From: an uncultured Bacteroidota bacterium
GTDB lineage: Bacteria > Bacteroidota > Bacteroidia > UKL13-3
Assembly (NCBI GenBank): GCA_903850915.1
Contig: CAINMV010000006.1
Coordinates: forward strand, 1 to 57,328
Direction: 5' to 3'
Length of the DNA: 57,328 nucleotides
Positions 43,286 to 51,679 of the stretch are shown piece after piece; within the stretch, counting starts at the first letter, position 1, and each line of letters begins with the position of its first letter. A program made the translations under genes and the position numbers. The notes under the pieces were generated by a model that searched no databases, was not told where the DNA came from, and saw only the letters and a program-made list of their open reading frames with translations.

Positions 43286-46200
43286 ATGATGAAACAACGT
43301 ATACTTATTCTTACTTTTCTCCTGCTGATATCCATTCGGGGATTGTTTGCACAATGCGGTACCATAGCGTTTTCGGGTAATGACACTTCTGGTTGTACAC
43401 CCCTAATAGTAAAGTTTACGGCAATAAATTTCCCTGTCGGTTCAGAGTTTGCCTGGGATTTTGGTGGTGGCTATAGTAGTCAATCGGCAGCCGACTCCAC
43501 AAAAACTAAAGTTTACAATACACTAGGCTTGTATAACGTTACCTTAAAGGTATTTCTACCAACTGGTGGCACCTGTGTGCTCACAAAAAACAATTATGTC
43601 TTTGTTTCCTCGCCTCCAACAGTGCAATTCACAATAAACAAAACAATGCTTTGTAATGGAGGCGATACGGTTACATTTACCGATGTTACATCGCGTTCGC
43701 AAAGCCGTGATTGGCTGATTGATGGTGTGAGTTATATTAATGGTCCGAAGATACTTAAGCATTATTTTGGCTTAACAGGGTTTAAGTCGGTTTCACTTGC
43801 TGTACATGACTCTTTAGGTTGTAACGCTGTTAGCAATATCGACTCGGCGGTACAGGTGGTTAACGCACCAACATTAAGTTTTGTGGCTAGCACAATCACA
43901 GGTTGTACACCTGTAAACGTTACATTCACGCCCACAATCTCTGGATTGGGAACACAGAAAATTGTCTCATATTCTTGGGTTATAACTGGCAGTACCGCAC
44001 CATTTAGCACGGATTCAATTCCATCAGTTACCTATAATTTACAAGGTAGTTATTCTGTTTCGCTTTCGGTAACTACCGATTTGGGATGCACGTATTCACT
44101 TACCAAGCCCAGCTATATCAATGTGGGAAGTGCCATTACAGTGAACTTCCTTGCGAACAACGTAAATACCTGTCGCAACCAAATTGTTAGATTGGTGAAC
44201 ACCACGGTTGGATTGCCTCTGCCTGGCATCTTCCGTTGGGTTCTGCCTGCCAATGCCATTGTAACCGGTGGCGATACCACGAAAGATACCATCTACTTGA
44301 AGTTTAATATAATAGGAACTTACGACATTTCTTTGAAATATATACGCAATGGATGTGTCTCCATAAAAACAGTAACTAATTACCTTAATGTTCGTTCACC
44401 ATTGGCAAGCTTCACTACCGCCGATGCGGTGAGTTGCACTTTTCCAGATACTGTTTTAATGAATAATACCAGTACGGTTCCACTAACTGGCGTAACTTCA
44501 TACAGCTGGATTGTGTATGATATTAATAAAGTTACTACATTACTTTCGTCCACATTAAAAAACCCAACTTTTATCATTAATAAATTAGGCAAATTTGATG
44601 TCCGATTAATTGTTTCTAATACCAATGGATGCTCAGATACACTGCGTGTCGCTAATTTTATCACGGTTGATTCAGTGAATGCCAATTTCTTACCTACACC
44701 TGCTATTGCTTGCCCAAAACAAAAAATTCAATTTACAGATCTTACCAATATCTTCTCATCTAAGGCACCTGCACGATATCGTTGGACTTTCTATAGCTTG
44801 GATAGTATACACACGCTTGATTTCTCAGCCAACGGTAACGATACCATCGCTAATCCAGTTGTGCGATATGATTCTTTGGGAACATACAATGTGCGTATGA
44901 TTGTGTTTAATAAATTTGGCTGTGCTGATACCGTATATCGTTCAAGTGCGGTAACTATAGCTACGCCAATTGCCTCCTTTTCCACCGCCGACTCTAATGT
45001 GTGTCATGGTGACTCAGTTGCACTAAACGCGCAAACAGCACCTTTGATGCCAAATTACAGCCACTTTTGGACAATACAACATAAGGACAGTAATATTACA
45101 ATTGCAGGAACCGGCAGTACATTTAAAACACGGCTTACAACACCGGGTGTTTATCACGTTAGTTACAAGGTATTAAATGATACTTTTTGTTCGGACAGCA
45201 TACGTATATTATCGTATTTAAAGGTCGGAGGTGTTAAGTCCACGATATCTTCGGATAAGTTAACTTCCTGCGCTCCTGGAATAATAAATTTCACATCAAC
45301 CACAGTCTATAATTTCCATTATAAAGATACCGCTTCTGCCATTACTTACCAGTGGAATTGTATTCCAATAAGTAATGGCGCAACCATGACCGGATTCACC
45401 ATATTAAATCAAGGTATGGGTATTACGGGTATCAACTTCACCCAGAATGGAACTTACACCATTAATTGTTTAGTAACCAACAGCGATGGTTGTCGTTATA
45501 TTGATACCGTGAATGGCCCAATTACGGTTAATATTGGTGCAAAGTCGATGTTTATGTTGAATAGTGTTTATTGCATCTACGACACCGCCAATGTTATTGA
45601 CTTTTCAGCATTAAATCCGGTAACATATAATTGGATTTCAGACGGTACGATAAATTTTTTACCTAATACCTCTGTTCCTACTCCCAGACTGGCATTCTCA
45701 GCCGTTGGACCGCATACTGTAAAATTAATTACCACTTCCATTGATGGATGTACTGATACAGCTTCAATGACGTTGAATATTTCCAAGCCTCTTGCTGATT
45801 TTATTAGCACAGATACGTTGAACGCTTGTGGACCGGTTCTTGTTAATTTTAAAAGTCGTTCATCGAGCGATGTAACTTTATTTACCTGGAACTTTGGCGA
45901 TGGATCACCATTATACACCACTAAAGATACTGTGATTTCGCATATCTATGCTATTGTAAATGGACAATCTGTTTTTAGTGTGACGCTAAAGGTAGAAAAT
46001 GCCTTTGGATGCAAAGATCAAATCACAAAGACCAATTTTATTAAAATTGTTACGGCGGTGCCATATTTTAAAATGTCGAACAATAAAGGCTGTGAGCCTT
46101 TAAGAGTGCACTTTGTAGATAGCAGTAGAAATGTAATGAAATTCTATTTTAATTATGGTTTTGGTCCGATAGATTCAACCACCATAGGTGATAAAACATA

Positions 46201-48250
46201 TACCTTGTCAAGTCCGAAGGCTTTGTATTCAGTATATAAGCCATACTTAATTGTAACAGACCGTTCAGGATTATGCTCGCAAATTTATCAGCCACTCGAT
46301 AGCATCGTTGTATATAGTAACCCAGAAGCTGGATTTTATGTAATTGATAGCACAGATTGCTCCCCTTTTGTAGTAAACTTTATTGATACTTCCCACGGAG
46401 CAACACGTTGGAAATGGGATTTCGAAAACGATGGTATTATTGATGATACCATACAATCACCTTCACATTCATACACTATCGGCGGCGTATACTCTGTAAA
46501 ACTTATTGTAACCAATGCCTATGGTTGCACCGATACCTTGATTAAAAATAATTACATCACCGCATTTGGTAAACCGGTAGCCGATTTCTCGGCTTCTGAT
46601 ACTGTGGTATGCCCGCATACTGCTGTTACATTCAACAACAAATCCACCTTCTCGAGTCCAATAACAACCTACCATTGGGATTTTGGAGTTCCTGGGATAT
46701 TATCTGACACTTCTGATTATGCCAACCCAGCGCCATTTATTTACGATAATCCGGGTAGCTATACCGTAACATTATACATTAAAGATGCTAATGGATGTTC
46801 GGATACACAGATTGTTACCAATAGAGTAATCGTTTTGGATTCATTCCCACCTTCCCAGCCACAGCTTTATTATATTACGGTGGTTAATGACAATGATATA
46901 AAAATGGTTTGGAGTGGCAACACTGCTCCCGACTTCAAAGCATATAATGTATACAGAAGTGCCGGTGCTGCCTTCACTCCATTGGTTACAAAATCGGTAG
47001 TCACAGATACTAGTTATACCGACAACACGGGTATCAATGTGAAGTCGCAACCCTATAGCTATAACATGGATGCCGCTGATATCTGTCAGTATCGAACAGC
47101 GCGCAGTATTACCCATAGAAGCATTTTTTTGGATGCAACAACACTTACCCAGAATAGTAATTCAATTACGTGGACGTCATATCAAGGTTGGCCTTCAGGT
47201 ACCTATGCATATAAGCTATATCGAAGCAATTCCTATGCAGGTACTTATCTGTTTTATGCGCAATTACCAGATGTCGATACCGATTTCGTAGATGTGAATC
47301 TCTGCGATTCGGACTATTATTATTATGTTGAAGCATTTCAGCCAGCAACCGGATTGATTTCAAGAAGTAACATCGATTTCAACCATCCTCCTTTCTATAT
47401 TCCGAACTTGCCATTGGAGTTATATCGAGCCACGGTAATAAACGATAAAGATGTTTATTTAGAATGGGATTCAACAAGTGCAATAAGCACCAATATGAAA
47501 CGTTACTTGGTTGATAAAATGGATGCCTCTGGTACATATAAAAATATTGCGGCTGTAACCAATGGCAGTTATGTCGACAAGAAGGTGGATGTGCATGCGC
47601 AAAGTTATTCTTATCAAATTAGAATGGAGGACTATTGTGGCAATGTCAATCCAGCATCTAACGTAGGAAAGAGTATTTACTTCGCAGTTTCGAATGTCGA
47701 TTACACGCTATATTTCAATTGGACCCCATATCTCGATTGGGCAAATGGAGTGCAATCATATCTAATTGAAATGTTCGATTTTAAAACCAATGCATATAAG
47801 TTGATAACAGTAGTGCCTGGAACAGAAACATCATTTATCGACAATAACTTCTACAATACGGACACGGCATATTGCTTCCGTATCCGCGCTATCGAAGCTG
47901 TTCAAAGTATTCCTGATACTAGTTTAAGTAACACCGATTGCCTTCAACTGCCTCCAAAAATTAACATTCCGAATGCGTTCAGTCCAAACAACGATGGTAT
48001 CAATGATATTTTCTTTGCGCAAGGGGTTTTCATTCAAAATTTAACAGGCAAGGCGTCTATCGATTATCAATTGCGTATTTATGATCGTTGGGGGATGTTG
48101 TTGTTTGAAACTAACGATATTAATAAAGGATGGGATGGCACCTATGGCGGCAAGCCATGTGAACTCGGGGTTTATGTTTATGATCTGAGGGCTACTGGAA
48201 TCGATCGACATCGCTTTAATTATAAGGGCACTTTGCAGTTGTTACGATAG
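43286..48250 (+). CDS. Large secreted PKD-repeat protein with type B T9SS sorting domain
   Basis: A 1654-residue extracellular protein. A signal peptide ends near residue 22 (...IRGLFAQ). The body to about 1195 is a tandem array of roughly a dozen PKD-like domains, with WDFG or WxF cores, GxYxVxLxVxNxxGCxDT ends and repeated Cys pairs. The clearest are WNFGDGSP, WDFENDG and WDFGVPG. About 1200-1550 looks like fibronectin type III-type repeats. The last ~100 residues start INIPNAFSPNNDGINDIFF and include RIYDRWGMLLFET, GWDGTYGGKP and GVYVYDLRA: the gliding-motility-associated C-terminal (type B) signal for export by the T9SS. Adhesin or surface-layer role inferred. Its position next to the glycan locus and near porQ is notable. 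Confidence 0.93.
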   Translation: MMKQRILILTFLLLISIRGLFAQCGTIAFSGNDTSGCTPLIVKFTAINFPVGSEFAWDFGGGYSSQSAADSTKTKVYNTLGLYNVTLKVFLPTGGTCVLTKNNYVFVSSPPTVQFTINKTMLCNGGDTVTFTDVTSRSQSRDWLIDGVSYINGPKILKHYFGLTGFKSVSLAVHDSLGCNAVSNIDSAVQVVNAPTLSFVASTITGCTPVNVTFTPTISGLGTQKIVSYSWVITGSTAPFSTDSIPSVTYNLQGSYSVSLSVTTDLGCTYSLTKPSYINVGSAITVNFLANNVNTCRNQIVRLVNTTVGLPLPGIFRWVLPANAIVTGGDTTKDTIYLKFNIIGTYDISLKYIRNGCVSIKTVTNYLNVRSPLASFTTADAVSCTFPDTVLMNNTSTVPLTGVTSYSWIVYDINKVTTLLSSTLKNPTFIINKLGKFDVRLIVSNTNGCSDTLRVANFITVDSVNANFLPTPAIACPKQKIQFTDLTNIFSSKAPARYRWTFYSLDSIHTLDFSANGNDTIANPVVRYDSLGTYNVRMIVFNKFGCADTVYRSSAVTIATPIASFSTADSNVCHGDSVALNAQTAPLMPNYSHFWTIQHKDSNITIAGTGSTFKTRLTTPGVYHVSYKVLNDTFCSDSIRILSYLKVGGVKSTISSDKLTSCAPGIINFTSTTVYNFHYKDTASAITYQWNCIPISNGATMTGFTILNQGMGITGINFTQNGTYTINCLVTNSDGCRYIDTVNGPITVNIGAKSMFMLNSVYCIYDTANVIDFSALNPVTYNWISDGTINFLPNTSVPTPRLAFSAVGPHTVKLITTSIDGCTDTASMTLNISKPLADFISTDTLNACGPVLVNFKSRSSSDVTLFTWNFGDGSPLYTTKDTVISHIYAIVNGQSVFSVTLKVENAFGCKDQITKTNFIKIVTAVPYFKMSNNKGCEPLRVHFVDSSRNVMKFYFNYGFGPIDSTTIGDKTYTLSSPKALYSVYKPYLIVTDRSGLCSQIYQPLDSIVVYSNPEAGFYVIDSTDCSPFVVNFIDTSHGATRWKWDFENDGIIDDTIQSPSHSYTIGGVYSVKLIVTNAYGCTDTLIKNNYITAFGKPVADFSASDTVVCPHTAVTFNNKSTFSSPITTYHWDFGVPGILSDTSDYANPAPFIYDNPGSYTVTLYIKDANGCSDTQIVTNRVIVLDSFPPSQPQLYYITVVNDNDIKMVWSGNTAPDFKAYNVYRSAGAAFTPLVTKSVVTDTSYTDNTGINVKSQPYSYNMDAADICQYRTARSITHRSIFLDATTLTQNSNSITWTSYQGWPSGTYAYKLYRSNSYAGTYLFYAQLPDVDTDFVDVNLCDSDYYYYVEAFQPATGLISRSNIDFNHPPFYIPNLPLELYRATVINDKDVYLEWDSTSAISTNMKRYLVDKMDASGTYKNIAAVTNGSYVDKKVDVHAQSYSYQIRMEDYCGNVNPASNVGKSIYFAVSNVDYTLYFNWTPYLDWANGVQSYLIEMFDFKTNAYKLITVVPGTETSFIDNNFYNTDTAYCFRIRAIEAVQSIPDTSLSNTDCLQLPPKINIPNAFSPNNDGINDIFFAQGVFIQNLTGKASIDYQLRIYDRWGMLLFETNDINKGWDGTYGGKPCELGVYVYDLRATGIDRHRFNYKGTLQLLR

Positions 48251-48274
48251 TATTTAAACGTAATAATACTGAAT

Positions 48275-48316
48275 AAAAAAAATCAATCCATGGCTTACCA
48301 GGGAACGATTTTTTTT
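48275..48316. terminator. Symmetrical bidirectional terminator
   Basis: A nested hairpin: A8-TC (48275-48284), two unpaired bases, TCCATGG, a CTTA loop, CCAGGGA (one A-G mismatch in this stem), two unpaired bases, then GA-T8 (48307-48316). Each strand gives an A-tract, a GC-bearing stem and a T-tract, so it can end transcription from the PKD-protein gene on + and the convergent glycosyltransferase on minus. Confidence 0.82.
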
Positions 48317-48342
48317 ATTTATGCCTAAATCTCTTGTGTGCT

Positions 48343-49644
48343 TTATTTCGTGAGTTTCATTACCGCATCAGACAGTAGTTTTGCCTGATGTCGGCTTTCA
48401 TAGCGAGATAAATCTATTGTATTCAGATCCAAATTCGAGTTCGTATTCCATGCATGAGCAAGGGCTGTTAAGTACAGGTAAATCGCATCTTCTTCGGCGT
48501 GGTCGAAACTTTTTCCTCTCTGGTTTTCCGCAATTAATTCTGCTACATCGCCATTTGGATTGGCAAGGGCAAGAATGGGTTTCTGGCTAGCAAAGTATTC
48601 GAAAATTTTACCTGGTATTATGCCTTCATTGTTTTCGTTCTGTGGCACAATCAAAAGTAAGGCGGTACTTTTCATTAAGTAATTTATCGATTCGGAATGA
48701 CTTACCATACCTGTAAACTCTGTTAAAGAACCTAATCCATTGGCTTTAATAAGGTCATTTATACCGTCGGATGCCATACCCACAAAGCGAAGTTGTAAGG
48801 GTGCAATATTTTGGTCAGCCAATCGTTTTACCGCACGAAGAAAAGCGACGGGATTATAACTGTCAGCGATGGTGCCGGTATAGGTAATTGTCAACGATTT
48901 CTCAGACGGCGCAGACTTTCGGTTTGTAAAATGGTCTGCATCATAACCAACATAAAGTATCTCGAAGTTTTCTGATTTAATCTTTGTGCTTTTCTTCAAA
49001 AATAATTCCCTAAAATTCTTACTACAGGTTATAAGTTGATCGGCCTGCTCTAAAACATCCAACTCCATTCGTTTATTCATGCGAAGGGCAAACGGAAGGT
49101 GGTATAGCTTTTTAAAGTAATAGATGTCTGTCCATGGATCAGTGAGGTCGCATATCCATTTAACGCCAAGTTTGCGCTTAAGCTCCAATCCAATTAGATG
49201 AGTAGATTGGGGCGGACTTGTGGTGTATACGATATCAATATTTTCTTCTTTAATTATTTTCTCGGCTTGCGCAACTGCAAAGTCAAACCAACCTTTGCGA
49301 GGGTCTGGAAAATAAAAGTTGCCTCGAATAAAACGCGCTACTTTCTGAAGAAAGCTAGGATGGCTTTCATTAGCAAAACCGGCTGTTGGAACGCTTTTTT
49401 TAACGAATCGCTTATAGTATTTATAATGTTCGTTAGTGTTGGTGCGGTACACACGAATGCGTGCAGGAATTTCGCGCAATAGCCCCTCGTCGGTGCCTTG
49501 GTAAGACGCGACATCCGGATTAACAGTAATTACAATAGGCTCAACACCAAATTGCATTAAATTCTTCACCAACGTCATGGGGCGTTGCACACCAGCACCT
49601 ACTGCCGGCGGAAAATAATAGGTGATGAAGAGGATTTTTTTCAT
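48343..49644 (-). CDS. Family 4-type glycosyltransferase
   Basis: A 433-residue GT-B enzyme. The N-terminus KKILFITYYFPPAVGAGVQRPMTLVKNLMQFG has the glycine-rich acceptor loop of WbuB-like GT4 enzymes. It continues with DIVYTTSPPQSTHLIGLELKRK and KWICDLTDPWTDIYYF. The donor domain has LTITYTGTIADSYNPVAFLRAVKRL (about 252-276) and NNEGIIPGKIFEYFASQKPILALANP (about 343-368). I chose the ATG at 49644, giving the standard start; an ATG at 49668 would add eight residues. It follows the CarB-half gene by 40 bp on the same strand, so the two are probably cotranscribed. It may serve the same surface glycan as the main locus. Confidence 0.9.
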   Translation of the reverse strand: MKKILFITYYFPPAVGAGVQRPMTLVKNLMQFGVEPIVITVNPDVASYQGTDEGLLREIPARIRVYRTNTNEHYKYYKRFVKKSVPTAGFANESHPSFLQKVARFIRGNFYFPDPRKGWFDFAVAQAEKIIKEENIDIVYTTSPPQSTHLIGLELKRKLGVKWICDLTDPWTDIYYFKKLYHLPFALRMNKRMELDVLEQADQLITCSKNFRELFLKKSTKIKSENFEILYVGYDADHFTNRKSAPSEKSLTITYTGTIADSYNPVAFLRAVKRLADQNIAPLQLRFVGMASDGINDLIKANGLGSLTEFTGMVSHSESINYLMKSTALLLIVPQNENNEGIIPGKIFEYFASQKPILALANPNGDVAELIAENQRGKSFDHAEEDAIYLYLTALAHAWNTNSNLDLNTIDLSRYESRHQAKLLSDAVMKLTK

Positions 49645-49684
49645 AATAATAACCGTGAATAAATCCACTGTAGACGAATCGAAT

Positions 49685-50866
49685 TTACCGGCTTAGGTAC
49701 ATGCTTTTCTCTCGATAGAGCTCACGGAAGGTAGGGTCGTTAAGGTCTTTTATAAACAAAATGGCTTCGCCAGTGGATTTCATCTCTGGGCCAAGTTCTT
49801 TATTCACACCCGGAAACTTATCAAAGCTAAAAACAGGTTGCTTTATGGCGTAGCCATTTTGCTTTGGAACGATGGTGAAATCTTTAATTTTGTGTGTGCC
49901 AAGCATCACTTTCGCTGCATAATTTATATATGGCACATCATAGGCTTTTGCAATAAAAGGCACTGTTCTGCTCGCTCTTGGATTGGCCTCTATTACGTAT
50001 ACCATTTCATTCTTAATGGCAAATTGGATGTTTAATAATCCTTTTACATTTAAGGCAAGCGCAATGCGCTTGCTGTATTCGGTCATAGTGTCTTTTACTT
50101 TTTCGCTTAAAGAAAATGGAGGAAGCACAGCACTACTGTCGCCACTATGTATTCCTGCAGGTTCAATATGTTCCATCATGCCGATGATATGTACATCTTC
50201 TCCATCACAAATACTGTCCGTTTCAGCCTCTTCTGCGCGGTCTAGGAAATGATCGATTAGTACCCTATTGCCAGGCAAATCGCCAAGAAGCGATATTACT
50301 GCATTTTCGAGGTCTTCGTCATTAATTACGATCTTCATCCCTTGTCCTCCCAACACGTAGCTAGGGCGAACCAACACGGGATACCCTACCTCTTTGGCTA
50401 CGCGAAGCGCATCATCTGCATCTTCTGCCACACCATATTTTGGATATGGTATTCCTAAGGCTTTCAGCAAGTCGCTAAACGAACCGCGGTCTTCTGCACG
50501 GTCCATATCATTGTATTGTGTCCCAAAAATGGGGATATTGTTTTCGTGCAGTTTCTGTGCTAATTTCAGGGCAGTTTGTCCGCCGAGTTGCACAATAACA
50601 CCATCAGGTTTTTCGTAGTCGATAATTTCACGAAGATGTTCCCAATAAACAGGTTCAAAATAAAGTTTATCTGCAATATCGAAGTCCGTGCTTACCGTCT
50701 CCGGATTGCAGTTTACCATTATAGTTTCGAAGCCCACTTCTCGTGCTGCTAAGACACCGTGAACACAGCTATAGTCGAATTCAATGCCTTGCCCAATTCT
50801 ATTGGGGCCGGAACCTAATACCACTACTTTTTTAAGTGAGGTTACTTTACTTTCGTTGTTGCTCAT
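49685..50866 (-). CDS. carB: Carbamoyl-phosphate synthase large subunit, C-terminal ATP-grasp half only
   Basis: A 393-residue protein matching the second synthetase unit of CarB (about residues 550-940 of the E. coli enzyme). It has VLGSGPNRIGQGIEFDYSCVH (about 15-35), NCNPETVSTD, VIVQLGGQTALKLA, VRPSYVLGGQGMKIV, DAEEAE-type DRAEEAETDSICDG, MEHIEPAGIHSGDS and VIEANPRASRTVPF (about 292-305). The first half of CarB and the C-terminal MGS-like regulatory domain are absent. The gene has its own clean ATG and a promoter-like match upstream. The DNA beyond is a divergent gene, so this is a free-standing half, not a frameshift. The partner half must be encoded elsewhere. Confidence 0.9.
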   Translation of the reverse strand: MSNNESKVTSLKKVVVLGSGPNRIGQGIEFDYSCVHGVLAAREVGFETIMVNCNPETVSTDFDIADKLYFEPVYWEHLREIIDYEKPDGVIVQLGGQTALKLAQKLHENNIPIFGTQYNDMDRAEDRGSFSDLLKALGIPYPKYGVAEDADDALRVAKEVGYPVLVRPSYVLGGQGMKIVINDEDLENAVISLLGDLPGNRVLIDHFLDRAEEAETDSICDGEDVHIIGMMEHIEPAGIHSGDSSAVLPPFSLSEKVKDTMTEYSKRIALALNVKGLLNIQFAIKNEMVYVIEANPRASRTVPFIAKAYDVPYINYAAKVMLGTHKIKDFTIVPKQNGYAIKQPVFSFDKFPGVNKELGPEMKSTGEAILFIKDLNDPTFRELYREKSMYLSR

Positions 50867-50875
50867 AGATGACTG

Positions 50876-50905
50876 CGAAGGTAATTAAAGTGCGTTGCAT
50901 TTCAA
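50876..50905 (-). promoter_or_regulatory. Possible promoter of the carB half gene
   Basis: Read on the minus strand: TTG at 50905-50903, 19 bases, then TACCTTCG at 50883-50876. This differs from TAnnTTTG at one base. The gene start at 50866 lies nine bases after the box. It supports transcription of this CarB half as an independent unit. Confidence 0.35.
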
Positions 50906-51022
50906 TAGGGGGTATGGCTGAATTTTAGGTGAGTTTAGGAATTACGACTCTGTGCATAACTTGTTATGACTTAACGCACGAAATACGTGATTTTCGCCGT
51001 TTAATTCATACACTTTATAGCC

Positions 51023-51679
51023 ATGAAATTTTTTATTGATACCGCCAATCTTAACCAAATAAAAGAAGCGAACGACCTCGGAATTCTTGATGGGGTGACC
51101 ACAAACCCAAGCCTAATGGCAAAAGAAGGAATCACCGGTTCCGCCAATATAATTAAGCATTATACCGATATATGTGCTATGGTAAACGGAGATGTTAGCG
51201 CTGAGGTAATTAGCACCGATTTTGAGGGTATTGTGCGCGAAGGCGAGATGCTTGCTGCCTTGCATAAAAATATTGTGGTGAAGGTTCCTATGATAAAAGA
51301 AGGCATAAAAGCCATTAAATATTTTAGTTCAAAAGGTATCCGCACCAACTGTACGTTGGTGTTTGGGGCTGGGCAAGCCATCCTTGCTGCTAAGGCGGGT
51401 GCCACTTATATTTCACCTTTCCTAGGGCGCCTCGATGATATTAGTTATGATGGAATATCCTTAATCGAACAGATTGTACATATATACAACATACAATGTT
51501 ACGATACGCAAGTATTGGCCGCATCCATTCGTAACCCCGTGCATATTATTAAATGTGCTGAAGCTGGAGCCGATGTGGTTACTAGTCCGCTCGATTCAAT
51601 TTTAGCTTTATTAAAACATCCACTTACGGATATTGGTTTGGAGAAATTTCTTGCCGATTATAAAAAAGGTAACCAATAG
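51023..51679 (+). CDS. Transaldolase / fructose-6-phosphate aldolase family
   Basis: A 218-residue TIM-barrel aldolase of the short TalC/FSA type. N-terminus [35 protein letters not shown]. Schiff-base Lys at 87 in [39 protein letters not shown] (about 109-139) and the C-terminal phosphate-binding area GADVVTSP. It likely acts in the non-oxidative pentose phosphate pathway, swapping a dihydroxyacetone unit between sugar phosphates. Transaldolase and true fructose-6-phosphate aldolase activity cannot be separated without checking individual active-site residues. It is divergent from the CarB half. Confidence 0.92.

Follow-up and report, generated by a model that had tools for sequence, protein, structure and literature searches.

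Split carbamoyl-phosphate synthases (CPS) occur in thermophiles and archaea, and in the archaeon Methanocaldococcus jannaschii the two halves of the large subunit, CarB, come from two genes, as in the enzyme described here, but with a separate origin. CPS.B of Aquifex aeolicus is presumably longer than the corresponding half described here and carries a regulatory domain. The Aquifex enzyme likewise consists of separate N- and C-terminal synthetase halves plus a glutaminase (CPS.A, CPS.B, and GLN), and these three proteins are described as reassembling into one 171-kDa complex (PMC6022934). Aquifex is, however, a hyperthermophile of another phylum, whereas in the present case the MGS domain is absent and the fission is lineage-specific and repeated. 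CarB of E. coli shares 50% identity over each half and all 26 catalytic and tunnel residues checked, but it is fused, carries the MGS regulatory domain, and its gene adjoins carA. Its halves are reported to fold independently and to be functionally equivalent apart from regulation (PMC6245113). The fused, MGS-less CarB proteins of Bacteroidota (about 940 aa; for example in Pedobacter, Sphingobacterium, Mucilaginibacter, and Maribacter) have the same domains and C-terminus as the protein described below, with C-half identities of 69-81% in these four genera, but form one polypeptide, not two. No report of a split or MGS-less CarB in Bacteroidota was found in the titles and abstract openings searched, a literature with most subscription journals outside its coverage, and the word 'carbamoyl' is absent from the main text of an archaeal fusion/fission survey (PMC11237513).

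The window analyzed here is the entire contig G000:C6 (57,328 bp) of a 2.94-Mb genome in 37 contigs that is 99.65% complete. At 49685-50866 on the minus strand it holds an ATG-started ORF of 393 aa, carB.C, which we identify by profile and structure matches, residue alignment, and orthologues as a free-standing C-terminal (carbamoyl-phosphate) half of the CPS large subunit without MGS. The initial annotation had described a clean start and a protein covering the second ATP-grasp unit of CarB only, and both descriptions hold. In the NCBIfam CarB model (1058 positions) the protein matches 543-918 with 551 bits, Pfam recognizes CPSase_L_D1 and CPSase_L_D2 (pre-ATP-grasp and ATP-grasp) as its only CarB domains, and the top solved-structure match is residues 557-918 of E. 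coli CarB (PDB 1bxr; whole-sequence E 6.8e-188). Both full-length NCBIfam CarB cut-offs, one of them at 599 bits, are missed by this half alone. The Pfam search found neither the oligomerisation nor the MGS domain in carB.C, and the C-terminus lies near the E. coli domain boundary where MGS would begin, only 7 residues being aligned past E. coli position 936; the MGS-like domain, usual in CarB but dispensable for catalysis, is thus missing from the window protein, as had been noted.

The N-terminal half, whose search had been recommended, was found elsewhere in the genome as a separate 550-aa ORF, carB.N (G000:C37:81762-83411). It scores 838 bits over positions 1-543 of the CarB model, contains CPSase_L_D1, D2, and the oligomerisation domain D3, and is the only match in this genome to the N-half query at E<=1e-100. 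Judging by where they lie on their contigs, the halves are at least about 88 kb from each other. carB.N is located directly downstream of adk, an order kept in 4/4 of the g1 genomes (the genus of the window) in which an N-half was found; adk was named in G000 and identified by similarity in the others. A single carA gene (449.9 bits) is located on a third contig, C10. Apart from the window gene, the search of this genome returned carB.N, as a 35% match within a 552-aa frame, and two ATP-grasp matches that were weak (26% identity); a full-length carB was not found elsewhere in it. carB.C as a paralogue of an intact carB with another role was rejected on these grounds, and the split-CarB reading is upheld: the genome has separate carA, carB.N, and carB.C, and no fused carB was found in it.

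Among the nine split genomes of the family, the N-half is present in eight and carA in seven. The N-half was not found at E<=1e-100 in G002, a 99% complete g1 genome, which we take as an assembly gap because an N-half is present in the closely related G004. Of 15 genomes searched for carA, 13 yielded the gene, the two negatives being G004 (89% complete) and G060 (87% complete). The genes can also be far apart in fused relatives, as in G079, where carA and carB are about 1.05 Mb from each other on one contig; scattered CPS genes are therefore not peculiar to the split members.

Since the genome is a draft in 37 contigs, and an outside case, G225, does resemble a gene broken at contig ends, an assembly break or frameshift in an intact carB has to be weighed. 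There is no break at 50866: 6.4 kb separate the ORF from the nearer contig end, both halves are contig-internal, have a start as well as a stop codon, and are flanked by unrelated sequence, and a free C-half is found in 5/5 g1 genomes as well as in genera g5 and g13 and in four other named records. An artefact has a negligible probability and is rejected for practical purposes on the five g1 genomes. carB.C is genuine and conserved, and it encodes half of an enzyme that probably serves pyrimidine synthesis.

In order to assess the catalytic residues, the halves were aligned with CarB of E. coli K-12 (L290) and 16 other CarB proteins. The N-site, C-site, tunnel, and ornithine-site positions are those of the literature, and all 30 residue letters, including four of the ornithine site, fit the E. 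coli K-12 sequence. With 275/548 (N-half) and 190/380 (C-half) identical positions to E. coli CarB, the two halves of the window's genome keep 8/8 N-site residues for bicarbonate and ATP in carB.N, 8/8 C-site residues for carbamate and ATP in the window gene (49685-50866), and 10/10 carbamate-tunnel or interdomain residues, the last being the conservation that remained to be checked. Of the four ornithine-site residues, two are changed (E892Q and L895F), which bears on control and not on catalysis. Both CarB halves are under strong purifying selection, with dN of 0.025-0.069 in g1, where synonymous sites were saturated in 7/8 comparisons, and 0.014-0.025 in g5; in the 5/12 unsaturated comparisons of the two genera together, dN/dS was 0.012-0.028. 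Three pairs of fused CarB gave dN of 0.013-0.033.

With the gene structure, all three genes, the residue conservation, the purifying selection, and the distribution observed, carB.C is very likely the CPS.B of a three-gene, MGS-less, glutamine-dependent CPS (CarA, CarB.N, and CarB.C) of the Aquifex type that arose by fission of an MGS-less CarB. In such an enzyme carA would provide the glutaminase, carB.N the bicarbonate-phosphorylating and oligomerisation domains, and carB.C the carbamate-phosphorylating domain. CarB.N and CarB.C would very probably reassociate non-covalently, CarA would supply ammonia to the N-half, and carbamate would travel through the conserved tunnel into the C-half, where a second ATP would yield carbamoyl phosphate for aspartate carbamoyltransferase and hence pyrimidines. 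We infer the physical reassociation, the activity, and the lack of allosteric control from these genes. A different reading has the C-half working without the N-half, either as a homodimeric ammonia-dependent CPS or as some other ATP-grasp ligase. According to PMC6022934, both partial reactions are catalyzed by isolated halves of the split CPS of Aquifex, and Methanobrevibacter smithii is reported to have a 'smallest CPS' of 41 kDa with a single domain, but the latter assignment is disputed on phylogenetic grounds (PMC11915815). The occurrence of N-half and carA in the split genomes given above, as well as the retention of every tunnel and interdomain residue checked, argue against an independent C-half, which we regard as quite improbable.

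The initial annotation treated loss of the MGS domain as a feature of the split half, a view that does not survive comparison with the fused CarB of relatives, which has frames of about 940 aa ending at the same residue as carB.C. In 59/59 aligned fused CarB (44 family rows and 15 from other families), the match to the N-half stops at 546-548 and that to the C-half starts at 1-4; the two are separated by <=8 residues, and 0-1 residue follows the C-half match. A causal role of the split in MGS loss is accordingly rejected; as fused relatives are usually about 940 aa, MGS was already missing before any split among the relatives sampled, and carB.C would have originated by fission at the inter-half linker of an already MGS-less CarB of about 940 aa, the form kept by the fused relatives. 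Without MGS, UMP, IMP, and ornithine should give no response at the classical site. The loss of ornithine control that had been predicted may matter little here. The single carbamoyltransferase found in the genome is the aspartate carbamoyltransferase PyrB (L306; G000:C23:59336-59767), so that ornithine control would have little to act on, and the CPS probably serves pyrimidines. An ornithine-type carbamoyltransferase was not found in the search of this genome, which suggests that the organism has no carbamoylation route to arginine. Bacteroidetes as a wider group are described as making arginine through succinylated intermediates, so that free ornithine is not the carbamoyl acceptor (PMC7311316). 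Such a route may explain why MGS loss was tolerated.

Upstream of carB.C, a fructose-6-phosphate aldolase gene starts at 51023 on the plus strand, and this divergent neighbour bears out the earlier statement that the first half of CarB is not upstream. The divergent intergenic region of 156 bp (50867-51022) holds whatever promoter carB.C uses on the minus strand, and promoter scans gave no convincing box in it. A promoter-like match had been put forward, but it carries no weight: 10 sigma-70-like sites were counted in 48100-51300 vs 7.9 (sd 3.2) in shuffled sequences, and none of them lies on the minus strand within the 156 bp. A scan with the consensus of a Bacteroidota-type -7 box gave an imperfect match only. 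Downstream, the ORF list, Pfam, and neighbourhood comparison place a group-1 glycosyltransferase at 48343-49644 on the minus strand, with a likely ATG start at 49644 and a gap of 40 bp. Cotranscription of the two genes had been considered meaningful. The pairing varies across g1, however: an opposite-strand gene lies between them in G001 and G002, the gap is about 0.5 kb in G003, and in L034, apparently the G004 record, carB.C is followed by a gene on the opposite strand, with no glycosyltransferase before the contig end. A functional operon is therefore rejected; the pairing is incidental and the glycosyltransferase is outside the system. The window also encodes, at 43286-48250, a 1654-aa protein whose C-terminal region (47948-48247) matches a CHU_C-domain protein located between the CarB halves of g13.

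The recommended survey of related genomes showed that the split is not confined to the window's genome. The C-half matched 61 of 64 family genomes in 63 match rows, of which nine are free C-halves in frames of 395-446 aa, distributed over g1 (5/5 genomes), g5 (3/3), and g13 (1/1). In the other 54 rows the frames run upstream of the C-half; 48 measure 940-990 aa and the remaining six 543-805 aa; of the latter, five start within 1.3 kb of a contig start and the sixth belongs to G077. A draw across the class gave matches at E<=1e-100 in 183 of 197 genomes, and among the matches listed only G000, G008, and G225 had frames under 500 aa. The two CarB parts of G225 both stop at or near contig ends, and this genome was rejected as a split carB, a contig-end break being most likely. 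The 14 genomes without a C-half match at that threshold (G093, G099, G116, G130, G136, G150, G159, G165, G188, G190, G213, G215, G226, and G236) may carry a different and more distant CarB, perhaps with an MGS domain. G051, a member of the family, has two fused, full-length carB genes (L182 and L183; G051:C1:96650-99600 and 736300-739250). G245, of another family, has C-type matches at G245:C1:198371-199540 and 211592-212761, where a second C-type carB in a 603-aa frame lies about 12 kb from a fused carB, and only one N-type match at E<=1e-100.

The 80 named loci comprise five free C-halves (L034, which is of g1, and L077, L085, L092, and L094), 74 fused genes, and L111, which is cut by a contig end. 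Three of the four split named genomes outside g1 have a separate N-half frame (588, 548, and 621 aa), and none was found in the genome of L094. The cut falls in the same linker every time, the N-halves ending shortly after ...YFYSTF and the C-halves starting shortly before NES or a near match. A wide FastTree tree of 87 rows, from which L034, whose genus G000 and G003 represent, and L050, L060, L080, L099, and L111, all cut by contig ends, were left out, needs five state changes, that is, splits or rejoinings, of which four are forced by starred branches. The same linker has thus been cut repeatedly, in g1, in g5 and g13, and in further Chitinophagaceae-like lineages.

In the only g13 genome, G016, both halves are on one contig in the order N - gene 1 - gene 2 - C. 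Judged by their N-termini, the two intervening genes appear lipoprotein-like, gene 2 carrying a CHU_C domain of type IX secretion. The g5 genomes have their two halves on separate contigs; in G008 and G020 the N-half is followed by gene 1 (33-38% identity to G016), and in G060 the C-half is preceded by gene 2 (44% identity to G016), whereas the N-half of G060 is at a contig end and its neighbour is not visible. The C-half of G008 and that of G020 have no adjacent gene 2. Relatives of gene 1 occur in 4/15 genomes, all in g5 or g13; G016 has an additional copy at another site, the sole copy of G060 is unlinked, and CHU_C-type matches to gene 2 occur in 15/15 genomes, the only strong one besides G016 being in G060. 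Both inserted genes are thus shared at the same half ends, though together in no single g5 genome, and a single ancestral N-1-2-C arrangement is therefore probable for g5 and g13. Genus g4 is represented by G007 alone (91% complete), whose fused CarB is flanked differently and which gave no gene-1 match in the 15-genome search. In the CarB tree, g4 groups with g5 and g13 at 100/100 with the order of the three left unsettled (g5+g13 support 71/25; g13+g4 not rejected, p 0.42). With the species genes (RpoB, RpoC, and nine proteins of the ribosomal L2 operon region), g4 falls next to g13 (100/99), and g5+g13 without g4, a group named after a first tree was seen, is rejected (p 3e-5). The fused g4 CarB nested inside a split clade suggests re-fusion, a claim carried by one draft genome, and the straightforward reading is one split followed by rejoining in g4.

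We therefore tentatively consider, at somewhat less than an even chance, that CarB fission is both repeated and reversible, MGS being gone, the linker cut independently in g1, in g5+g13, in L085/L092, in L077, and in L094, and the halves rejoined in g4. It is also quite possible, though short of probable, that the g4 gene is not a re-fusion and that g5 and g13 split separately, that a duplicated carB lost complementary halves, or that a cassette passed between g5 and g13. The CarB tree would allow this, and two full-length carB genes in one genome do occur, as in G051, but the species genes and the two shared inserted genes speak against it. The linker length of G007 was dropped as proof of re-fusion, as it varies among fused Bacteroidota CarB. 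A single split for all split family members as a clade without g4 is rejected (p 1e-59). A single-split clade that includes g4 is borderline on CarB (p 0.055 and 0.052) and has p 0.50 on the larger species set, and RpoB alone joins g1 to the g5/g13/g4 group with support 93; g1 may or may not share the split event of g5 and g13.

The mechanism of a three-gene CPS is thus expected and known, and the present case stands apart by its phylum, by the absence of MGS, by cutting on several occasions, and by a possible re-fusion. For annotation pipelines that score whole-length CarB, the C-half is a warning, as it alone falls under both NCBIfam cut-offs. The Bacteroidota offer a repeated split in an already MGS-less enzyme with fused sister lineages available for comparison, which makes it testable whether a tunnelling enzyme depends on the covalent joining of its two active sites. 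Repeated and reversible fission, if true, would be a natural series on why this joint opens and closes.
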